From Acidimicrobiaceae bacterium (lineage in GTDB: Bacteria; Actinomycetota; Acidimicrobiia; Acidimicrobiales; RAAP-2): 64,000 nucleotides of DNA. Under the pieces are notes generated by a model. It was not told where the DNA came from, ran no database searches, and worked only from the letters and a program-made list of their open reading frames with translations. The position numbers were made by a program, and so were the translations under genes. Position 1 is the first letter of the stretch, and each line of letters begins with the position of its first letter. This document shows positions 4,548-53,307 of this stretch, piece after piece. The stretch lies in NCBI GenBank assembly GCA_003160635.1, contig PMLV01000040.1, positions 51,808 through 115,807 on the forward strand, given 5' to 3'.

Positions 4548-5849
4548 TCAGCCGGCGGCCCAGGAGGCTGCGTCGACCACTTGCTCGGGCTTGGCGGCGA
4601 TGATCAGACGATCGCGCCCTTCGCGCTTGGCTGTCATGAGGGCGGTATCGGCGTACGCGATGATCCCGGCGGCGGCGGTGGCGTAGGTGGAGTCGGCCAG
4701 ACCGATGCTCACGGTGAAAGGCGGGACCCCTGCCGCGACCACCGATTCGGCCAGGGCGGCGCGCAGACGGTGCACGATCGGCGCCGCCTCGGTGACGTCG
4801 CAGCCCACATAGACCAGGAGGAACTCCTCCCCACCGAATCGAGAGACCATGTCGCCCGTCCGCACCGTTGCCCCCGTCACCGTCGAGAAGTGACGGAGCG
4901 CGCGGTCGCCTGCCGCGTGCCCGTGCGTGTCGTTGAGAACCTTGAAGTTGTCCAGGTCGGCGAAGGCCACGGCATAGGGAATCTGTTCATTGTCCAAACG
5001 GCGCAAGGCCTCCTCGAGACTGCGCCGATTCAACTGGCCGGTCAGCGAATCGGTGGTGGCGGCAATTTCGCTGGTGACCAGGGCCCGGAGCAGGCCAAGG
5101 CGGGCTCCTGTCTGTATGGCGAGGACCTCTGCCCGGGCACGTTGCTCGGCATCGAGCGGCTCGTCGGGGGGACCGGTCAAATGGAGCACACCCGATGGCG
5201 TGCCGAGGATTGTCACCGGCACGCACAGGGCGGACACTTCTTCCTTGCGCACCTGGAGGTGGGGACAGGTCGCCAGCGCGTGGCTGTCCGCGAACTCGAG
5301 GATCTGACCTCGACGAACCGCCGGACAGCTCCACGGCGTGCTGACGCCGCAGCCCGGTCCCCCGTTCGTCACGGATGCCGCGCCCTGGTGGATATGGGCC
5401 CGACTGGCATCGGCCAGGAGCAGCTCCCCCGGACCGTCGGAGACGAGGTCGAGAGCGCGACCAATGACCTGGAGCACATCGGGCTCGTGTTCGGCCATCT
5501 CGAGGGCAGTGTGCAAGTCGGAGTTGAAGCGATGGCCGTCCGCCGCTGCCTGGAGCAGCCCCTGTTGGCGCAAGATCTCCGACCGTTGGGCCGCGAGGGC
5601 ATGGTGGATCGGCAGGCCACTGGTGAGGGTGAGCGCAACGAGGGCAGCGACCACGAAGAGCGCCGCCGTGCCGGCGTAGCCACCAAACCCATTTCGCAGG
5701 TGCAGCGCCCCGCTGATCCACCACGAAATGGAAAAGGCGATCAGAATCCCGATGATGGCGCGCAGGGACTCGATGGCCAACGTCCGCATGGAGGCATCGA
5801 TCGCACGAACCCGTTGCGTCGCTGGAGTGATCGGTTCATCACCGGCCAT
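4548..5849 (-). CDS. Membrane-bound GAF-GGDEF diguanylate cyclase
   Basis: A 433-residue enzyme that should make the second messenger cyclic di-GMP from two GTP. Two membrane segments lie at about 27-50 and 58-78, followed by a short helical linker. A GAF-like sensor region spans about 105-255, with several Cys residues (C167, C175, C195) that could be redox- or metal-sensitive. The GGDEF domain spans 265-433. The active site reads GGEEF at 339-343. An RxxD inhibitory site (R330-D333) lies five residues upstream, so product feedback is expected. It is the only c-di-GMP synthase in the window and is relevant to the c-di-GMP riboswitch near 42.85 kb. Confidence 0.93.
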   Translation of the reverse strand: MAGDEPITPATQRVRAIDASMRTLAIESLRAIIGILIAFSISWWISGALHLRNGFGGYAGTAALFVVAALVALTLTSGLPIHHALAAQRSEILRQQGLLQAAADGHRFNSDLHTALEMAEHEPDVLQVIGRALDLVSDGPGELLLADASRAHIHQGAASVTNGGPGCGVSTPWSCPAVRRGQILEFADSHALATCPHLQVRKEEVSALCVPVTILGTPSGVLHLTGPPDEPLDAEQRARAEVLAIQTGARLGLLRALVTSEIAATTDSLTGQLNRRSLEEALRRLDNEQIPYAVAFADLDNFKVLNDTHGHAAGDRALRHFSTVTGATVRTGDMVSRFGGEEFLLVYVGCDVTEAAPIVHRLRAALAESVVAAGVPPFTVSIGLADSTYATAAAGIIAYADTALMTAKREGRDRLIIAAKPEQVVDAASWAAG

Positions 5850-39295: not shown

Positions 39296-39384
39296 TGGCG
39301 GAGGGAGTGGGATTCGAACCCACGGTACCCATGAGGCACAACGGTTTTCGAGACCGTCCGATTCGGCCACTCTCGCATCCCTCC
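39296..39384 (-). tRNA. tRNA-Ser (CGA)
   Basis: On the minus strand it begins GGAGGGA, pairs with TCCCTCC, and ends in an encoded CCA (39296-39298). The anticodon stem-loop is ACGGT-CTCGAAA-ACCGT with anticodon CGA. A long variable arm and the T-arm GGGTTCGAATCCC are present, all typical of serine tRNA. It reads UCG codons, frequent in this high-GC genome. Confidence 0.97.
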
Positions 39385-41189: not shown

Positions 41190-42641
41190 GTGCTCCCGAC
41201 CCTGATGAGCGAGCCCGAGAGCCAGCTCCGCCTTGAGGCGAGCACCTCCGGCCTGGCGGACCGGGTGCCCCTGGTATCGGCCCGTAGCCTCTTTTCAAAG
41301 GGGCAACGTAACTTCCTTATCGGCCTGTTTTGCGTCATTGTCTTGGGCCTGGTCTTGTCGGTCCGGGTTACCTTTATCGTGATTCTGGCGATCTTCACGT
41401 TGACGTACCTCGTGGCGGTCGTGTACCGGGTCTTCTTGTTCGTGCGCTCGTCGAGGGCCGATGCCGTAGAAGTCGTAACGGACGAGGAAGCGTTGAGTGT
41501 GCCAGAGCGTGATCTGCCGTTTTACACGATCATGATCGCGGCATATCGAGAATCGGCGGTGATCGCAAAACTTGTCGAACAGGTTGAACAGCTTGACTAC
41601 CCGGTTGAGCGTCTCGAGGTTCTGCTGCTCATTGAAGAGGATGATGACGAAACGCTCGAAGCGTTGCGGAAGATCGATGCCGGTTCTCAGTTCAAACTGG
41701 TGGTCGTTCCGCCCGGTGAGCCGCGCACGAAACCCAAAGCGCTCAACTACGGGCTGACGTTGGCTCGAGGGGATATCGTCGCGGTCTTCGACGTCGAGGA
41801 TTCTCCTGACATTCTCCAGCTGCGCCGCGCAGCCGTAGCGCTGAATCGCTTCGGACCCGAGGTTGCGTGTTTGCAGGCAAAGTTGTCGTACGGAAACGCC
41901 GATCAGAATTTCATCACTCGGAGCTTCACCATCGAGTACGCCATGTGGTTTTCCTTCTTTCTGCCCGGCTTGGTGTCATTGAATGCGCCGATTCCGCTGG
42001 GGGGGACATCAAACCATTTCCGTCGTGCTGCGCTGCGGGCGCTTGGGGGCTGGGACCCCTACAACGTCACTGAAGACTGCGACTTGGGCGTCCGAATGTT
42101 CCGGGAGGGTTATCGCACAAAGGTCCTCGAATCCGTCACCCTTGAGGAAGCCAATAGCGATTTCGTCAACTGGGTCAAACAGCGTTCGCGATGGTACAAG
42201 GGTTACCTGCAGACCTTCTTCATCCATCTTCGTTCCCCGGTGGAACTCACCAGGGAGATGGGCTGGAAGGGTGTATTCCACTTGACGGCATTTGTCGGTG
42301 CAACCCCGATTCTCGCCGTATTTAACCCAGTCTTCTGGGTTCTGACCATTCTGTGGTTTGTGGCCCATCCGGTGTTCCTGCTTGAGATCTTTCCTGCACC
42401 CGTCTACTACGTGGGACTGGTTCTGTGGTCCTTTGGCAATTTCCTCCTCTGGTACCTGACCCTGCTCGTCGCCCGTCACACCATGCGAAGTGGATTGATT
42501 GTCGCAGCGATGCTAGTGCCGCTCTACTGGATCATGATGTCCATAGCCGCCGTGAAGGCAGGGTTTCAGCTTGTCGTCACACCTTCCTTCTGGGAGAAGA
42601 CGGTGCACGGACTTACGGAGAAGCCGCAATTAATCGAGTAA
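41190..42641 (+). CDS. Membrane GT2 glycosyltransferase, cellulose-synthase-like
   Basis: A 483-residue processive-type family 2 glycosyltransferase. Two N-terminal membrane segments (about 41-85) precede the catalytic domain, with the first Asp region at EEDDDET (149-155), FDVEDSPD at about 200-207, TED (294-296) and QxxRW (Q331-W335). Four more membrane segments lie near the C-terminus. It should polymerise a sugar nucleotide on the inner face and extrude a beta-glycan. No PilZ domain is present, so any c-di-GMP control would be indirect. GTG 41190 has TACACT 6 nt upstream, suggesting leaderless expression. Confidence 0.88.
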   Translation: MLPTLMSEPESQLRLEASTSGLADRVPLVSARSLFSKGQRNFLIGLFCVIVLGLVLSVRVTFIVILAIFTLTYLVAVVYRVFLFVRSSRADAVEVVTDEEALSVPERDLPFYTIMIAAYRESAVIAKLVEQVEQLDYPVERLEVLLLIEEDDDETLEALRKIDAGSQFKLVVVPPGEPRTKPKALNYGLTLARGDIVAVFDVEDSPDILQLRRAAVALNRFGPEVACLQAKLSYGNADQNFITRSFTIEYAMWFSFFLPGLVSLNAPIPLGGTSNHFRRAALRALGGWDPYNVTEDCDLGVRMFREGYRTKVLESVTLEEANSDFVNWVKQRSRWYKGYLQTFFIHLRSPVELTREMGWKGVFHLTAFVGATPILAVFNPVFWVLTILWFVAHPVFLLEIFPAPVYYVGLVLWSFGNFLLWYLTLLVARHTMRSGLIVAAMLVPLYWIMMSIAAVKAGFQLVVTPSFWEKTVHGLTEKPQLIE

Positions 42642-42780
42642 GTGGTTGGCGCTCGGCATCGGGAGTTGACTCTGTTGTAAGTCAAGGCCGCACCATCCGA
42701 GGAGTAGCCATCGTGTGAACGATGCGTGTCCGGTTGGTTGCAGGTTGGTTGGGAAGTTTTTTTCCGAGCACCTTCTTGGG

Positions 42781-42817
42781 TATTCCCGTTGACATGAACC
42801 GGGAATACGTCCATATT
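42781..42817 (+). promoter_or_regulatory. Promoter with -35 inside an inverted repeat
   Basis: TTGACA (42789-42794, perfect -35) is 17 bases from CATATT (42812-42817, four of six -10 positions), placing the transcription start near 42824, just before the riboswitch. The -35 lies exactly in the 11-base loop of a perfect 8-bp inverted repeat TATTCCCG / CGGGAATA (42781-42788, 42800-42807). Such a dyad over a -35 is a probable operator for an unknown regulator. Confidence 0.62.
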
Positions 42818-42831
42818 CGAATGGAATAGCA

Positions 42832-42908
42832 GTCGAAAAGGGCAAACCTCCCGCGAGGGGGTGACGCAAAGCCACGGGACTCCATGAGTCAGCCGGGCCG
42901 CCGAAATG
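42832..42908 (+). promoter_or_regulatory. Cyclic di-GMP-I (GEMM) riboswitch
   Basis: The conserved core of GEMM-I is present in order: AGGGCAAACC (42839-42848), a short GC hairpin (P2), GACGCAAAGCC (42863-42873), a second hairpin ACGGGACTCC/AGTCAGCCGGG and the closing GCCG. The GGG before CAAACC, which includes the base that distinguishes c-di-GMP from cGAMP binders, is retained. It lies in the 5' leader of the secreted GH5-like gene, about 57 nt before its ATG, so it probably controls translation or early transcription of that gene in response to c-di-GMP. Confidence 0.85.
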
Positions 42909-42964
42909 GTGTTGGGTTTCTCCCCGTTTCCGCGACCCTTGGTTCATTCTGGGTGGAGAGGGAC

Positions 42965-44686
42965 ATGGGTCGGATGACAACTGCGGGATCGAGTGGTTCT
43001 ACAGACAACGCCGGGAGCGGCTCGGCTGGTACCACGGTATCCACCCGACGTTGGTGGTGCAGCCAGCGTGCGGTCCTCGCTGTGGCCGTTTGCATTCTCG
43101 TCGGCTTGATCACGCTGAACACGTCGAGATCGGCCGTGGCCTCAGAAGATGCGGTGCATACATCAGTTATCTCGTCGGTCACCCCGCACCCGGTATCAAC
43201 CACGACCACGTCAGGTGAGCACGTCATTGGTTCACTCTCGCGGACGCGGGTCACGACTCACAAGCTGTCCTTCACTGCTGGACTGGGACCAAATGGTCAA
43301 GCCCGCCGGCCTTCTCTCACGGCCTCACTCCCGTCGATCTCGACTACGACTGTCCAAATACCGGGTGCACCGGTCGTCACCTCCCTCTCGCCCAGCACTG
43401 TTTCGGCGGGTGGCGGTTCCATTGTGACCATCTTCGGGAGTGGGTTTGGCGGAGCGACCGCAGTTAAGTTCGGGCCGAATTCCCCCTCTAGTTTCACGGT
43501 GGTCACGCAGAACGAAATCACGGCGACAGCACCCACGAATGCCGGTACCGTCGGCGTGAGCGTTGTCAACACGTTGGGGGCGTCCACGGCGTCTCAAGGA
43601 AGCCAACTGACCTATGCATCGACGGGCCAGCTTCCGATTACAGCATCGGGACCCAATCTCGAAATCGGTGGCGTTCCTCACAAATTCACCGGTGTGAATG
43701 CCTACGAACTGGCGACCGAGTGGGGTACTAACCCTGGTTGCGGCGGCATGGAAACGACGACTCAGATCGCATCGCTCTTTTCCTCATTAGCTCCCGATTC
43801 CATCGTGCGCTTCTGGGCCTTCCAAGGTGACCTCGCGACGAACATCAACACCCATCAGATCGACTGGGCTCCAATCGATCGGATCTTCTACCTCGCAGCC
43901 GAGTATCACGTCTATCTCCTGCCGGCCATCACGGATCAAGGCGGCACCTGTGACGGGCAACATTGGCAGGATCCGTCATGGTACGCGGGCGGCTACAAGG
44001 ACGTCTTCAACACGGCGGCGAACTCCGATGGCAGCGGTGTCACGCCGTTGTCCTACTGGGACTACATGCGGGCGCTGGTGAGCCGTTACAAGAACTCCCC
44101 GGCGTTGGGTATGTGGGAGCCGATCTCTGAACCGGAGGCGTCGACCTGTGCGTCCACCTACGAGCCGATCAATTGCGGGGGTCACCAGACATGCCCCAAG
44201 GAGTCCGCTGCTGCGACCGACCTCTTGTCCTTCTTCGACACTGTGGGTGGGGAGATTCACTCCCTCGATCCGACCCACCTCGTTGAAGGTGGATTCATCG
44301 GTGGCGGTCAATGCGGCACCGCGGGAACCGACTACGAGACCGTAGGGGCGAGCCCGGGAATTGACGTCCTCAGCGTTCATGATGGTTATGGGGCGTCGTT
44401 GTTGGGCGGTGATCAGTGGAATGGCCTGGCTGTGCGCTTCGCCCAAGCGGCCGTTTTAGACAAGCCGATCATCACGGGCGAGACTGGGATTATCGCCGGC
44501 AACGTTCCGGGATGTGAAAGCTTCAGCCAGCGCGCAACCAACATGGCAGCAAAGAGACAAACTCAGTTTGGGGCTGGGTCGGACGGGTTCTTGGTCTGGG
44601 ACTGGGTGATCGACCCCCTGGGACCATGCAGCGGGAACACCGGTCCAGGCGACCCCTTGATGAACCTGTTCACCGTCGGTTCATAA
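42965..44686 (+). CDS. Exported GH5-like glycoside hydrolase with IPT/TIG domain
   Basis: A 573-residue protein. A membrane signal or anchor lies at about 35-51. An IPT/TIG Ig-like domain (PVVTSLSPSTVSAGGGSIVT) spans about 136-220. A (beta/alpha)8 domain of GH5 type spans 228-573, with IVRFWAFQGD, WEPISEPE (acid Glu389) and TGETG (nucleophile Glu506). The usual NEP of GH5 is SEP here. Likely substrate is a beta-glucan or mannan at the cell surface. ATG 42965 follows GGAGAGGGAC; an in-frame ATG at 42884 falls inside the riboswitch. It is preceded by the BcsA-like GT. Confidence 0.8.
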   Translation: MGRMTTAGSSGSTDNAGSGSAGTTVSTRRWWCSQRAVLAVAVCILVGLITLNTSRSAVASEDAVHTSVISSVTPHPVSTTTTSGEHVIGSLSRTRVTTHKLSFTAGLGPNGQARRPSLTASLPSISTTTVQIPGAPVVTSLSPSTVSAGGGSIVTIFGSGFGGATAVKFGPNSPSSFTVVTQNEITATAPTNAGTVGVSVVNTLGASTASQGSQLTYASTGQLPITASGPNLEIGGVPHKFTGVNAYELATEWGTNPGCGGMETTTQIASLFSSLAPDSIVRFWAFQGDLATNINTHQIDWAPIDRIFYLAAEYHVYLLPAITDQGGTCDGQHWQDPSWYAGGYKDVFNTAANSDGSGVTPLSYWDYMRALVSRYKNSPALGMWEPISEPEASTCASTYEPINCGGHQTCPKESAAATDLLSFFDTVGGEIHSLDPTHLVEGGFIGGGQCGTAGTDYETVGASPGIDVLSVHDGYGASLLGGDQWNGLAVRFAQAAVLDKPIITGETGIIAGNVPGCESFSQRATNMAAKRQTQFGAGSDGFLVWDWVIDPLGPCSGNTGPGDPLMNLFTVGS

Positions 44687-44916: not shown

Positions 44917-46263
44917 ATGAGCCAGACGCTCCCCCGCCTTGATGAACCTGCCCTGCTCCGATCAATCGCACCGGTAGTGGAAATGTCCGCCACCGAGGTG
45001 CCACGGGAAAGCGAGGCCCGAGGGAGCCGTTTCCCGACGCCATCCGGCCAGTCCGGGCAGAATTCCAGCTTTCCCCTCGTTGAACTGGCAATTCCGGTCT
45101 ACAACGAGGAGCACGCCCTCGAGGTGAATGTATGCCGCCTTCGCTCCTATCTGGACGAGTCGTTCCCCTTCCAAACGACGGTCCGAATCGTCGACAACGC
45201 CAGTACTGACGGGACATGGGCAGTGGCGACCCGACTCGCAGCAACCCTCCCCGGCGTAACAGCGATGAGGCTCGACGAAAAGGGCAAAGGTCGAGCGGTT
45301 CGCGCCGCCTGGTCGACCAGCTCCGCCCAGGTCGTGGCCTATATGGATGTCGACCTTTCAACTCATCTTGGCGCACTCCTTCCTTTGGTCGCCCCCCTGC
45401 TCTCCGGTCACAGTGATGTGGCAATCGGCAGCCGATTGGCTCCAGGCGCCCATGTCCTTCGAGGTGTCCGCCGTGAGGTGGTTTCGCGTGGCTACCATTT
45501 GCTCCTTCGGCTCGCGCTACGCAACCAGTTTTCGGATGCAACTTGCGGATTCAAAGCGGCTCGACGTGAGACGGCGGAGATGCTACTTCCTCTCGTGAGC
45601 GATGAACATTGGTTCTTCGACACCGAGCTACTGGTGCTGGCTGAGCGCAATGGATTCCGCATTCACGAGGTGCCGGTGGACTGGATTGATGACGCCGACT
45701 CTCGGGTGAAGGTGCGGACCGTAGCGCGGGGCGACCTGAGAGGTATCGCTCGGCTCATGCACAGTCGAGCCACGGGGCAGGAGCGACAGACAAGTTCGAA
45801 TGGCTCAAAGAACTTGCCACATGCGCGACAGGGAACTCGTTACGCAGGAGTAGGTGTCGTGAGCACCGTGGCCTACCTCGTTATCTTTCTCGTGTTGCGT
45901 GGTGATCTTGGAATGTATGCCGCCAATGTCGCTGCTTTGGCCTTGAGCACCGTAGGCAACACAATCGCCCACGCTCGATTCACCTTTGGCCCCAGGGGTG
46001 GATTGCGCATGCGTCAAGCAGCGATCGCCGGAGGCACGTCCTTCGTCACCGCAATAGCTCTCACTTCGTTGGCTCTAATCGCCGAAGAGTTGCTCGGGGC
46101 GGCTTCATCCGTAACAGAGGCGCTTGCGATCTTGCTGGGCACTGTGGTCGCCGGATTCGTGGAGCTTGTCATGCTCCGTGCATCCGCATATCGCATTCAC
46201 ACTCAGCATGCGCGTCGCGAGTCCAGGCCTGATCACCTAGCGAGTCCAGGCCTGATCAGCTAG
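44917..46263 (+). CDS. GT2 glycosyltransferase fused to a GtrA-like membrane domain
   Basis: A 448-residue protein. Residues about 50-280 form a GT2 domain of the dolichol-phosphate-sugar synthase type (AIPVYNEEHALEVNVCRLRS, VDNASTDGTW, YMDVDLSTHL, FKAARRETAEMLL). Residues about 305-430 form a four-segment GtrA-like domain (RYAGVGVVSTVAYLVIFLVL, NTIAHARFTF). Such fusions make a polyprenyl-phosphate sugar and help flip or transfer it. ATG 44917 has no strong ribosome site. A 23-bp tandem duplication forms its 3' end. It converges with the methyltransferase gene with 8-bp overlap. Confidence 0.85.
   Translation: MSQTLPRLDEPALLRSIAPVVEMSATEVPRESEARGSRFPTPSGQSGQNSSFPLVELAIPVYNEEHALEVNVCRLRSYLDESFPFQTTVRIVDNASTDGTWAVATRLAATLPGVTAMRLDEKGKGRAVRAAWSTSSAQVVAYMDVDLSTHLGALLPLVAPLLSGHSDVAIGSRLAPGAHVLRGVRREVVSRGYHLLLRLALRNQFSDATCGFKAARRETAEMLLPLVSDEHWFFDTELLVLAERNGFRIHEVPVDWIDDADSRVKVRTVARGDLRGIARLMHSRATGQERQTSSNGSKNLPHARQGTRYAGVGVVSTVAYLVIFLVLRGDLGMYAANVAALALSTVGNTIAHARFTFGPRGGLRMRQAAIAGGTSFVTAIALTSLALIAEELLGAASSVTEALAILLGTVVAGFVELVMLRASAYRIHTQHARRESRPDHLASPGLIS
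46218..46263 (+). repeat. 23-bp tandem duplication at a gene end
   Basis: Two adjacent 23-bp units (46218-46240 and 46241-46263) differ at one base. Both contain CCAGGCCTGATCA. Because 23 is not a multiple of three, the second copy is read in another frame and supplies the TAG stop of the GT2-GtrA gene. The duplication therefore lengthened and changed that protein's C-terminus, and created the overlap with the methyltransferase gene. Confidence 0.9.
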
Positions 46264-53026: not shown

Positions 53027-53114
53027 TGGCGGAGGCGGTGGGATTTGAACCCACGGTTGCTTTCACAACACACGATTTCCAATCGTGCCGATTCGGCCGC
53101 TCTCGCACGCCTCC
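53027..53114 (-). tRNA. tRNA-Ser (GGA)
   Basis: On the minus strand it begins GGAGGCG and pairs with CGCCTCC, with encoded CCA (53027-53029). The anticodon stem-loop CACGA-TTGGAAA-TCGTG gives anticodon GGA, reading UCC/UCU. The long variable arm and T-arm GGGTTCAAATCCC are typical of serine tRNA. Its first 20 bases differ by only three from those of the other tRNA-Ser in the window. Confidence 0.97.
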
Positions 53115-53193: not shown

Positions 53194-53307
53194 GGGCGCG
53201 GTGGCCGGGTCCTGCGCAACGGCCGCTCGTGAATCGAGTCAGGGTCGGAAGGCAGCAGCTCTCAGCGGGTATGGCCGGGTGCCGTAGCCAACCTGGCCGC
53301 CGCGCTC
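53194..53307 (+). ncRNA. ffs: Signal recognition particle RNA (small, 4.5S type)
   Basis: The SRP domain IV signature GTCAGGGTCGGAAGGCAGCA lies at about 53235-53256, with the GGAAG tetraloop region and the AGCAG bulge. The ends pair over a long stem (GGGCGCGGTGGCC with GGCCGCCGCGCTC). Size (about 114 nt) and position just upstream of dnaX match small bacterial SRP RNAs. It binds Ffh to direct membrane proteins to the translocon. The exact ends are inferred from the stem. Confidence 0.88.

Follow-up and report, generated by a model that had tools for sequence, protein, structure and literature searches.

A c-di-GMP-I riboswitch in the leader of a GH5-mannanase-like gene and its predicted regulon in an Acidimicrobiaceae genome

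Genes and features of the locus

The window, the whole stretch of 64,000 nucleotides analyzed here, belongs to an Acidimicrobiales MAG of 6.93 Mb (342 contigs, 91% complete, 8% contamination). The gene for a membrane GT2 glycosyltransferase is followed by the gene for an exported GH5-mannanase-like enzyme, whose leader carries a c-di-GMP-I (GEMM-I) aptamer, and then by a GT2-GtrA polyprenyl-phosphate glycosyltransferase-like gene (Table 1). A small SRP RNA (53203-53301) and two tRNA genes (53030-53114 and 39299-39384) are also present in the window and are ordinary.

Table 1. Features at the GT2 and GH5-like genes, in window coordinates
Feature	Position	Strand	Basis or remark
Membrane GT2, QxxRW-type motif (QRSRW), no PilZ	41190-42641	+	Pfam GT2 87.9 bits
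Direct repeat GGTTGC-N5-GGTTG, candidate operator	42736-42751	+	leave-one-out score 15.9; exact two-repeat match in genome search
Perfect inverted repeat TATTCCCG-N11-CGGGAATA	42781-42807	.	probably incidental
Sigma70-like promoter TTGACA-N17-CATATT	42789-42817	+	sequence; sister leaders with equal spacing; start expected near 42824
c-di-GMP-I (GEMM-I) aptamer	42832-42906	+	RF03167 and RF01051 matches; G20=42841, C44=42865, A47=42868, C92=42901
Helix P4, GAAATGG (42903-42909) with CCGTTTC (42924-42930)	42903-42930	+	covaries across the genus; 5' arm begins in the aptamer 3' end
Candidate anti-Shine-Dalgarno TTTCTCC, P4 loop	42917-42923	+	complementary to GGAGAGG; predicted pairing
Shine-Dalgarno GGAGAGG	42955-42961	+	sequence
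Exported GH5-mannanase-like enzyme, IPT/TIG domain, 573 aa	42965-44686	+	putative acid/base E389, nucleophile E507
GT2-GtrA polyprenyl-phosphate glycosyltransferase-like neighbour	44917-46263	+	part of conserved gene order

Residues 226-509 of the exported protein match the endo-beta-mannanase 4qp0 (E 6e-4), and E389 and E507, both invariant in relatives, align to the catalytic glutamate pair of 4qp0 in a clan GH-A context. The TIG domain (36.5 bits) was the sole Pfam/NCBIfam match, and the AlphaFold model of the catalytic part has a pLDDT of 41. Since no Pfam GH match was obtained, the GH5-like label of the first-pass annotation is likely, not proven; the mannanase similarity and both catalytic glutamates stand behind it. 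Set beside the GH5 endo-beta-mannanases 4qp0 and 4awe, the protein shows weak similarity over the full domain with both catalytic positions, whereas it has no Pfam GH5 family match and its function is predicted from sequence.

The neighbouring GT2 had been described as BcsA-like and free of a PilZ domain. The second part holds: the enzyme shares the GT2 family, the QRSRW motif and membrane segments with the BcsA/CelA cellulose synthase and lacks the C-terminal PilZ domain. The first part goes too far, since its scores against curated families are far below the cut-offs (56 bits versus 699.1 for TIGR03030 CelA, 57.6 versus 422 for PgaC).

The order GT2, GH5-like and GT2-GtrA, with genes for a membrane protein and for a GH18 protein farther on, is kept in palsa_650, an Acidimicrobiaceae relative of the same genus, where the orthologous leader carries the aptamer too. 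The GH5-like ortholog of palsa_650 is split over two frames at L064:6480-6490, by an assembly error or by decay. In a further relative (L066, Acidimicrobiales MAG_BO157) a gap of about 110 nt separates the GT2 and GH5-like genes, with no aptamer found, so a glycan module that existed already has apparently gained the riboswitch or lost it.

The aptamer and its predicted ligand

A covariance search with cmscan against all Rfam families recovered the GEMM-I aptamer that the first-pass annotation had recognized by eye. The match to RF03167 (c-di-GMP-I-GGC) scores 60.7 bits (gathering score 59, E 7.6e-12) and the match to RF01051 scores 59.8 bits (gathering score 35). The core elements stand in the order claimed, AGGGCAAACC, GACGCAAAGCC and then GCCG. 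With the numbering of Vc2 (PMC3764141; PMC4744006), the canonical ligand-contact bases G20, A47 and C92 are all present, and the interhelical C44-G83 partners of P2/P3 are kept, since C42865 and the AG conserved in P3 align unchanged. The J1/2 and J2/3 signatures are identical in nearly all aptamer copies of the genus. The aptamer is part of the 5' leader of the gene it would control, between promoter and start codon, and this arrangement is conserved.

The best Rfam label, that of the GGC family, raises the question of whether the aptamer senses another cyclic dinucleotide, either the ligand of this variant family or cGAMP. The RF03167 score is barely above its gathering score, and the ortholog scores below the gathering score of RF03167 and above that of RF01051. 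As we understand the name and the consensus of the family, a G at the position of A47 marks the variant; the consensus reads GACGCGAAG and the window GACGCAAAG, with A42868. On this base the RF03167 label was rejected as a sign of a variant ligand and is regarded as a near tie. The cGAMP riboswitches (GEMM-Ib) have an A at position 20. The window has G42841 there, the genus copies read GGCA, and G20 and A47 are canonical throughout window and genus copies, so that a ligand other than c-di-GMP is very improbable. The element thus belongs to a known riboswitch class, ordinary within it, and is predicted to be a canonical c-di-GMP binder.

The predicted control of the exported GH5-like enzyme by c-di-GMP at the RNA level, next to a processive-type GT2, is supported. 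The additional statement that c-di-GMP acts here instead of through the synthase was too specific: PilZ was not found genome-wide, the GT2 is below the BcsA/CelA cut-offs, and the gene pair occurs without a riboswitch.

Promoter, gene start and inverted repeat

The promoter proposed just 5' of the aptamer is present, with TTGACA (42789-42794) and CATATT (42812-42817) separated by 17 bp. Sister leaders repeat the N17 spacing with a related -10 element (CANTGT), and the orthologous promoter is TTGACA-N17-AATATT. The open reading frame start at ATG 42884 was rejected because it falls within the aptamer. Translation likely begins at ATG 42965, which follows GGAG (42955-42958) and is 59 nt from the aptamer; the distance is equal in the ortholog.

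A perfect 8-bp dyad had been reported at the -35 element and interpreted as a second, DNA-level input. The dyad exists and brackets the -35; it is actually 9 bp long (GTATTCCCG-N11-CGGGAATAC). According to this interpretation, a protein bound to the dyad, as repressor or activator, would act together with c-di-GMP at the RNA level, specifically on a GT2-GH5 glycan module, and the GT2-GH5 order is indeed kept in two relatives. The window alone contains 35 inverted repeats with perfect 9-bp arms and 0-30 nucleotides between them, so that the dyad is at the level of chance; no second copy of the dyad within two mismatches was found in the genome, at other promoters or elsewhere, and none in the orthologous leader. 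In addition, L066 keeps the gene pair without the riboswitch. The dyad was therefore rejected as an operator, and regulation of this kind confined to the glycan module is highly improbable. An input at the DNA level is nevertheless likely, but through a direct repeat farther upstream, missed in the first-pass annotation, that recurs across the regulon and is a better candidate than the dyad.

Riboswitch targets and c-di-GMP proteins in the genome

Altogether, 18 GEMM-I aptamers were found in the genome, and this regulon is the larger picture that is invisible from the window alone. GEMM-I matches occur in 26 of 295 genomes drawn from the class, and no listed genome exceeds that of the window in their number. 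Most targets are exported or located at the surface, and many of these are enzymes that cut sugars. They include GH26-like exported proteins in the same genome (C297) and in relatives (G001:C89, G002:C180a, G002:C45 and both G004 leaders), the GH5-like protein of the window, a beta-helix protein and CAP-like/propeller-like exported proteins, the last assigned by eye. Enzymes of c-di-GMP turnover are targets as well, namely EAL (C251, L035) and PAS-HD-GYP proteins (C230, L034). The target list is incomplete, since several targets of the genome run off contig ends. With a GGDEF-EAL protein (C236, L032) in the regulon besides the EAL and PAS-HD-GYP proteins, a feedback loop is possible; the N-terminal membrane part of the C236 protein lies in another frame.

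The genome has 33 GGDEF matches, of which 32 are above the cut-off. The GGEEF cyclase assigned earlier to 4548-5849 was confirmed; it is encoded on the minus strand, matches GGDEF with 104.9 bits and has the I-site in the arrangement RxxD-x5-GGEEF (RTGDMVSRFGGEEF). c-di-GMP signalling is usually described via protein receptors. No PilZ match was found anywhere in the genome, and the identical search finds PilZ in five control genomes; this receptor search covered PilZ, and other known c-di-GMP receptor types (BldD, RsiG, degenerate EAL/GGDEF, MshEN) may act beside the RNA. A soil actinobacterial genus combines many cyclases and no detectable PilZ (one genome searched) with up to 18 predicted RNA receptors in one genome, which are tied to exported proteins and to the c-di-GMP enzymes (EAL, HD-GYP) themselves.

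The window element resembles Vibrio cholerae Vc1/Vc2 (GEMM-I, RF01051) in aptamer architecture and in the contact bases G20, A47 and C92, and, as with Vc1, which precedes gbpA (PMC4744006), the 5' leader that contains it belongs to a gene for a surface-located or exported protein. It differs from both in that 18 copies are present in one actinobacterial MAG, most of them behind one common DNA motif, and in the covarying platform helix. The riboswitch class itself is known; what is new is the regulon with its common operator-like repeat and covarying platform helix. In a literature search of partial coverage, no open paper dealt with c-di-GMP riboswitches of Acidimicrobiia, and none described glycoside hydrolases as a riboswitch regulon.

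A direct repeat common to the riboswitch leaders

When the regions upstream were submitted to a Gibbs search, a direct repeat, (TGC)-N5-GGTTGC-N5-GGTTG, emerged before 14 of the 18 aptamers, at -78 to -103 from the aptamer and mostly at -89 to -96. The information of the motif is 19.3 bits in all, compared with 11.9-12.6 bits in shuffled controls. The triple repeat has seven exact matches in the 6.9-Mb genome, and all seven lie before aptamers (C98, C146, C185, C215, C230, C251 and C282). When one mismatch was allowed, 25 matches were obtained versus 22 in the control; ten of them are at aptamers, and the remaining 15 are without a downstream aptamer signature and mostly lie within long open frames. 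In genus relatives, four of six exact matches are at aptamers. The window's copy is located about one 11-bp turn farther upstream than the copies of most sister leaders, and the leader of the ortholog has a weaker, degenerate copy. Since the leaders are otherwise dissimilar (median identity 56-57%), recent duplication was rejected as the source of the common motifs for most of them; the platforms of C185 and C215 are 85% alike.

Response regulators of the OmpR family, in actinobacteria MtrA and PhoP among them, have direct-repeat operators with 11-bp phasing. The present motif has the same layout, hexamers on the upstream side of the -35 in a phase of about 11 bp, which we take as a lead only; it differs in reading GGTTGC-N5-GGTTG. 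The repeat might instead be an UP-like promoter element or a DNA-bending element, with the riboswitch as the sole regulator. Its absence from four of the 18 leaders would fit such a role; the specific hexamers, the strict 11-bp phase and the near-exclusive placement at aptamer promoters speak against it and make it unlikely. We tentatively propose a dedicated DNA-binding regulator of the 11-bp-phased GGTTGC repeat, whose regulon would approximate the set of c-di-GMP-I leaders. At nearly every promoter, one transcription factor and one aptamer class would then each act as a gate, and the lineage would have dispensed with PilZ receptors. As the motif is almost confined to aptamer promoters, a two-layer regulon is directly testable and the motif offers a starting point in the search for its regulator.

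Helix P4 and the direction of the switch

In the genus leaders, a helix termed P4 lies 3' of GCCG, with 84.5% of cells paired across 21 leaders; slid versions, used as control, pair in 35-52%. Its arms vary among leaders, for example GAAATAGC/GCTATTTT, GAAATGG/CCATTTT, GAAATGAA/TTCATTTT and CAGC/GCTG. Five of the seven pairs are changed on both sides, and the covariation score was reached by none of 500 shuffles. Leaders of the CCCAGCG type add a Shine-Dalgarno hairpin, and together with P4, 9 of 17 pairs show compensatory changes.

P4 of the window uses G42903 and A42904, which correspond to G94 and A95 of Vc2 according to our mapping from the structure line of the Rfam match and PMC3764141. 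In the ligand-bound state of Vc2, these two bases are used by P1 and by the A95 triple (PMC3764141). The P4 loop contains TTTCTCC, complementary to the Shine-Dalgarno sequence (duplex -13.0 kcal/mol). No apparent anti-Shine-Dalgarno or terminator is present in Vc1 (PMC4744006). The overlap of P4 with the aptamer 3' end, together with the complementary loop, suggests translational control and leans towards an OFF switch.

Folding energies do not decide the question. Holding versus releasing the aptamer 3' end gave no average change in Shine-Dalgarno pairing, which is scarcely higher than in shuffles (0.695 versus 0.643), and the leader as a whole is predicted to be no more stable than shuffled sequences (z -0.17). 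When P4 was forced, access to the Shine-Dalgarno sequence went up in nine leaders, went down in five and was unchanged in eleven, the one of the window included.

The same regulon could be under an ON switch, in which the bound aptamer stacks on P4 and P4 sequesters the anti-Shine-Dalgarno strand, so that the ribosome site opens. The 5' arm of P4 begins almost exactly at the aptamer end, so coaxial stacking is possible; leaders opened by forced P4 outnumber those closed by it; and class I riboswitches are capable of positive action, as for Vc1 (PMC4744006). P4 of the window takes the very bases that the ligand-bound P1 and the A95 triple need (PMC3764141), which argues against an ON switch, and we regard the ON version of the regulon as a realistic alternative that is not the expected one. 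On direction alone, OFF is favoured over ON only slightly.

Taken as a whole, the explanation that we consider probable is that a canonical c-di-GMP-I riboswitch heads the GH5-mannanase-like mRNA as one unit of the 18-member regulon. An activator or repressor on the GGTTGC direct repeat would set transcription from the TTGAC-type promoter. The nascent leader, in which the aptamer is identified by the covariance model and the contact bases, would then sense c-di-GMP, supplied by a subset of the GGDEF proteins. With the ligand bound, G94/A95 at the aptamer 3' end would be held in P1, and the covarying helix P4, which shares them, would be weakened; its 3' strand or loop could then pair with the Shine-Dalgarno sequence, and translation would fall. 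The exported and surface proteins, several glycosidases included, would be made only if the DNA operator permits it and c-di-GMP is low.

Further genes behind GEMM-I leaders

A truncated aptamer on the minus strand of L036 (G000:C334:39057-39123, 38.9 bits) precedes a frameshifted peptidase-like frame and is probably a decayed member. In two species, a riboswitch is followed by a gene for a protein of about 80 amino acids with a CHRCGWRG zinc-ribbon-like motif (L033:6117-6356 and L094:275-514); one of the two was searched and had no Pfam match. Prepilin-like genes with GFTLIEL or GFGLIE N-termini lie behind GEMM-I leaders in relatives from the order and from the genus (L056 and L057, from G045 and G046, and L102, from G003:C23). 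c-di-GMP controls type IV pili elsewhere, and these targets fit that role. At L099:6187-7530 (G002:C180b), a GEMM-I leader with an exact direct repeat precedes an ISAzo13-like transposase (PF07592), so that a mobile element may be riboswitch-controlled.
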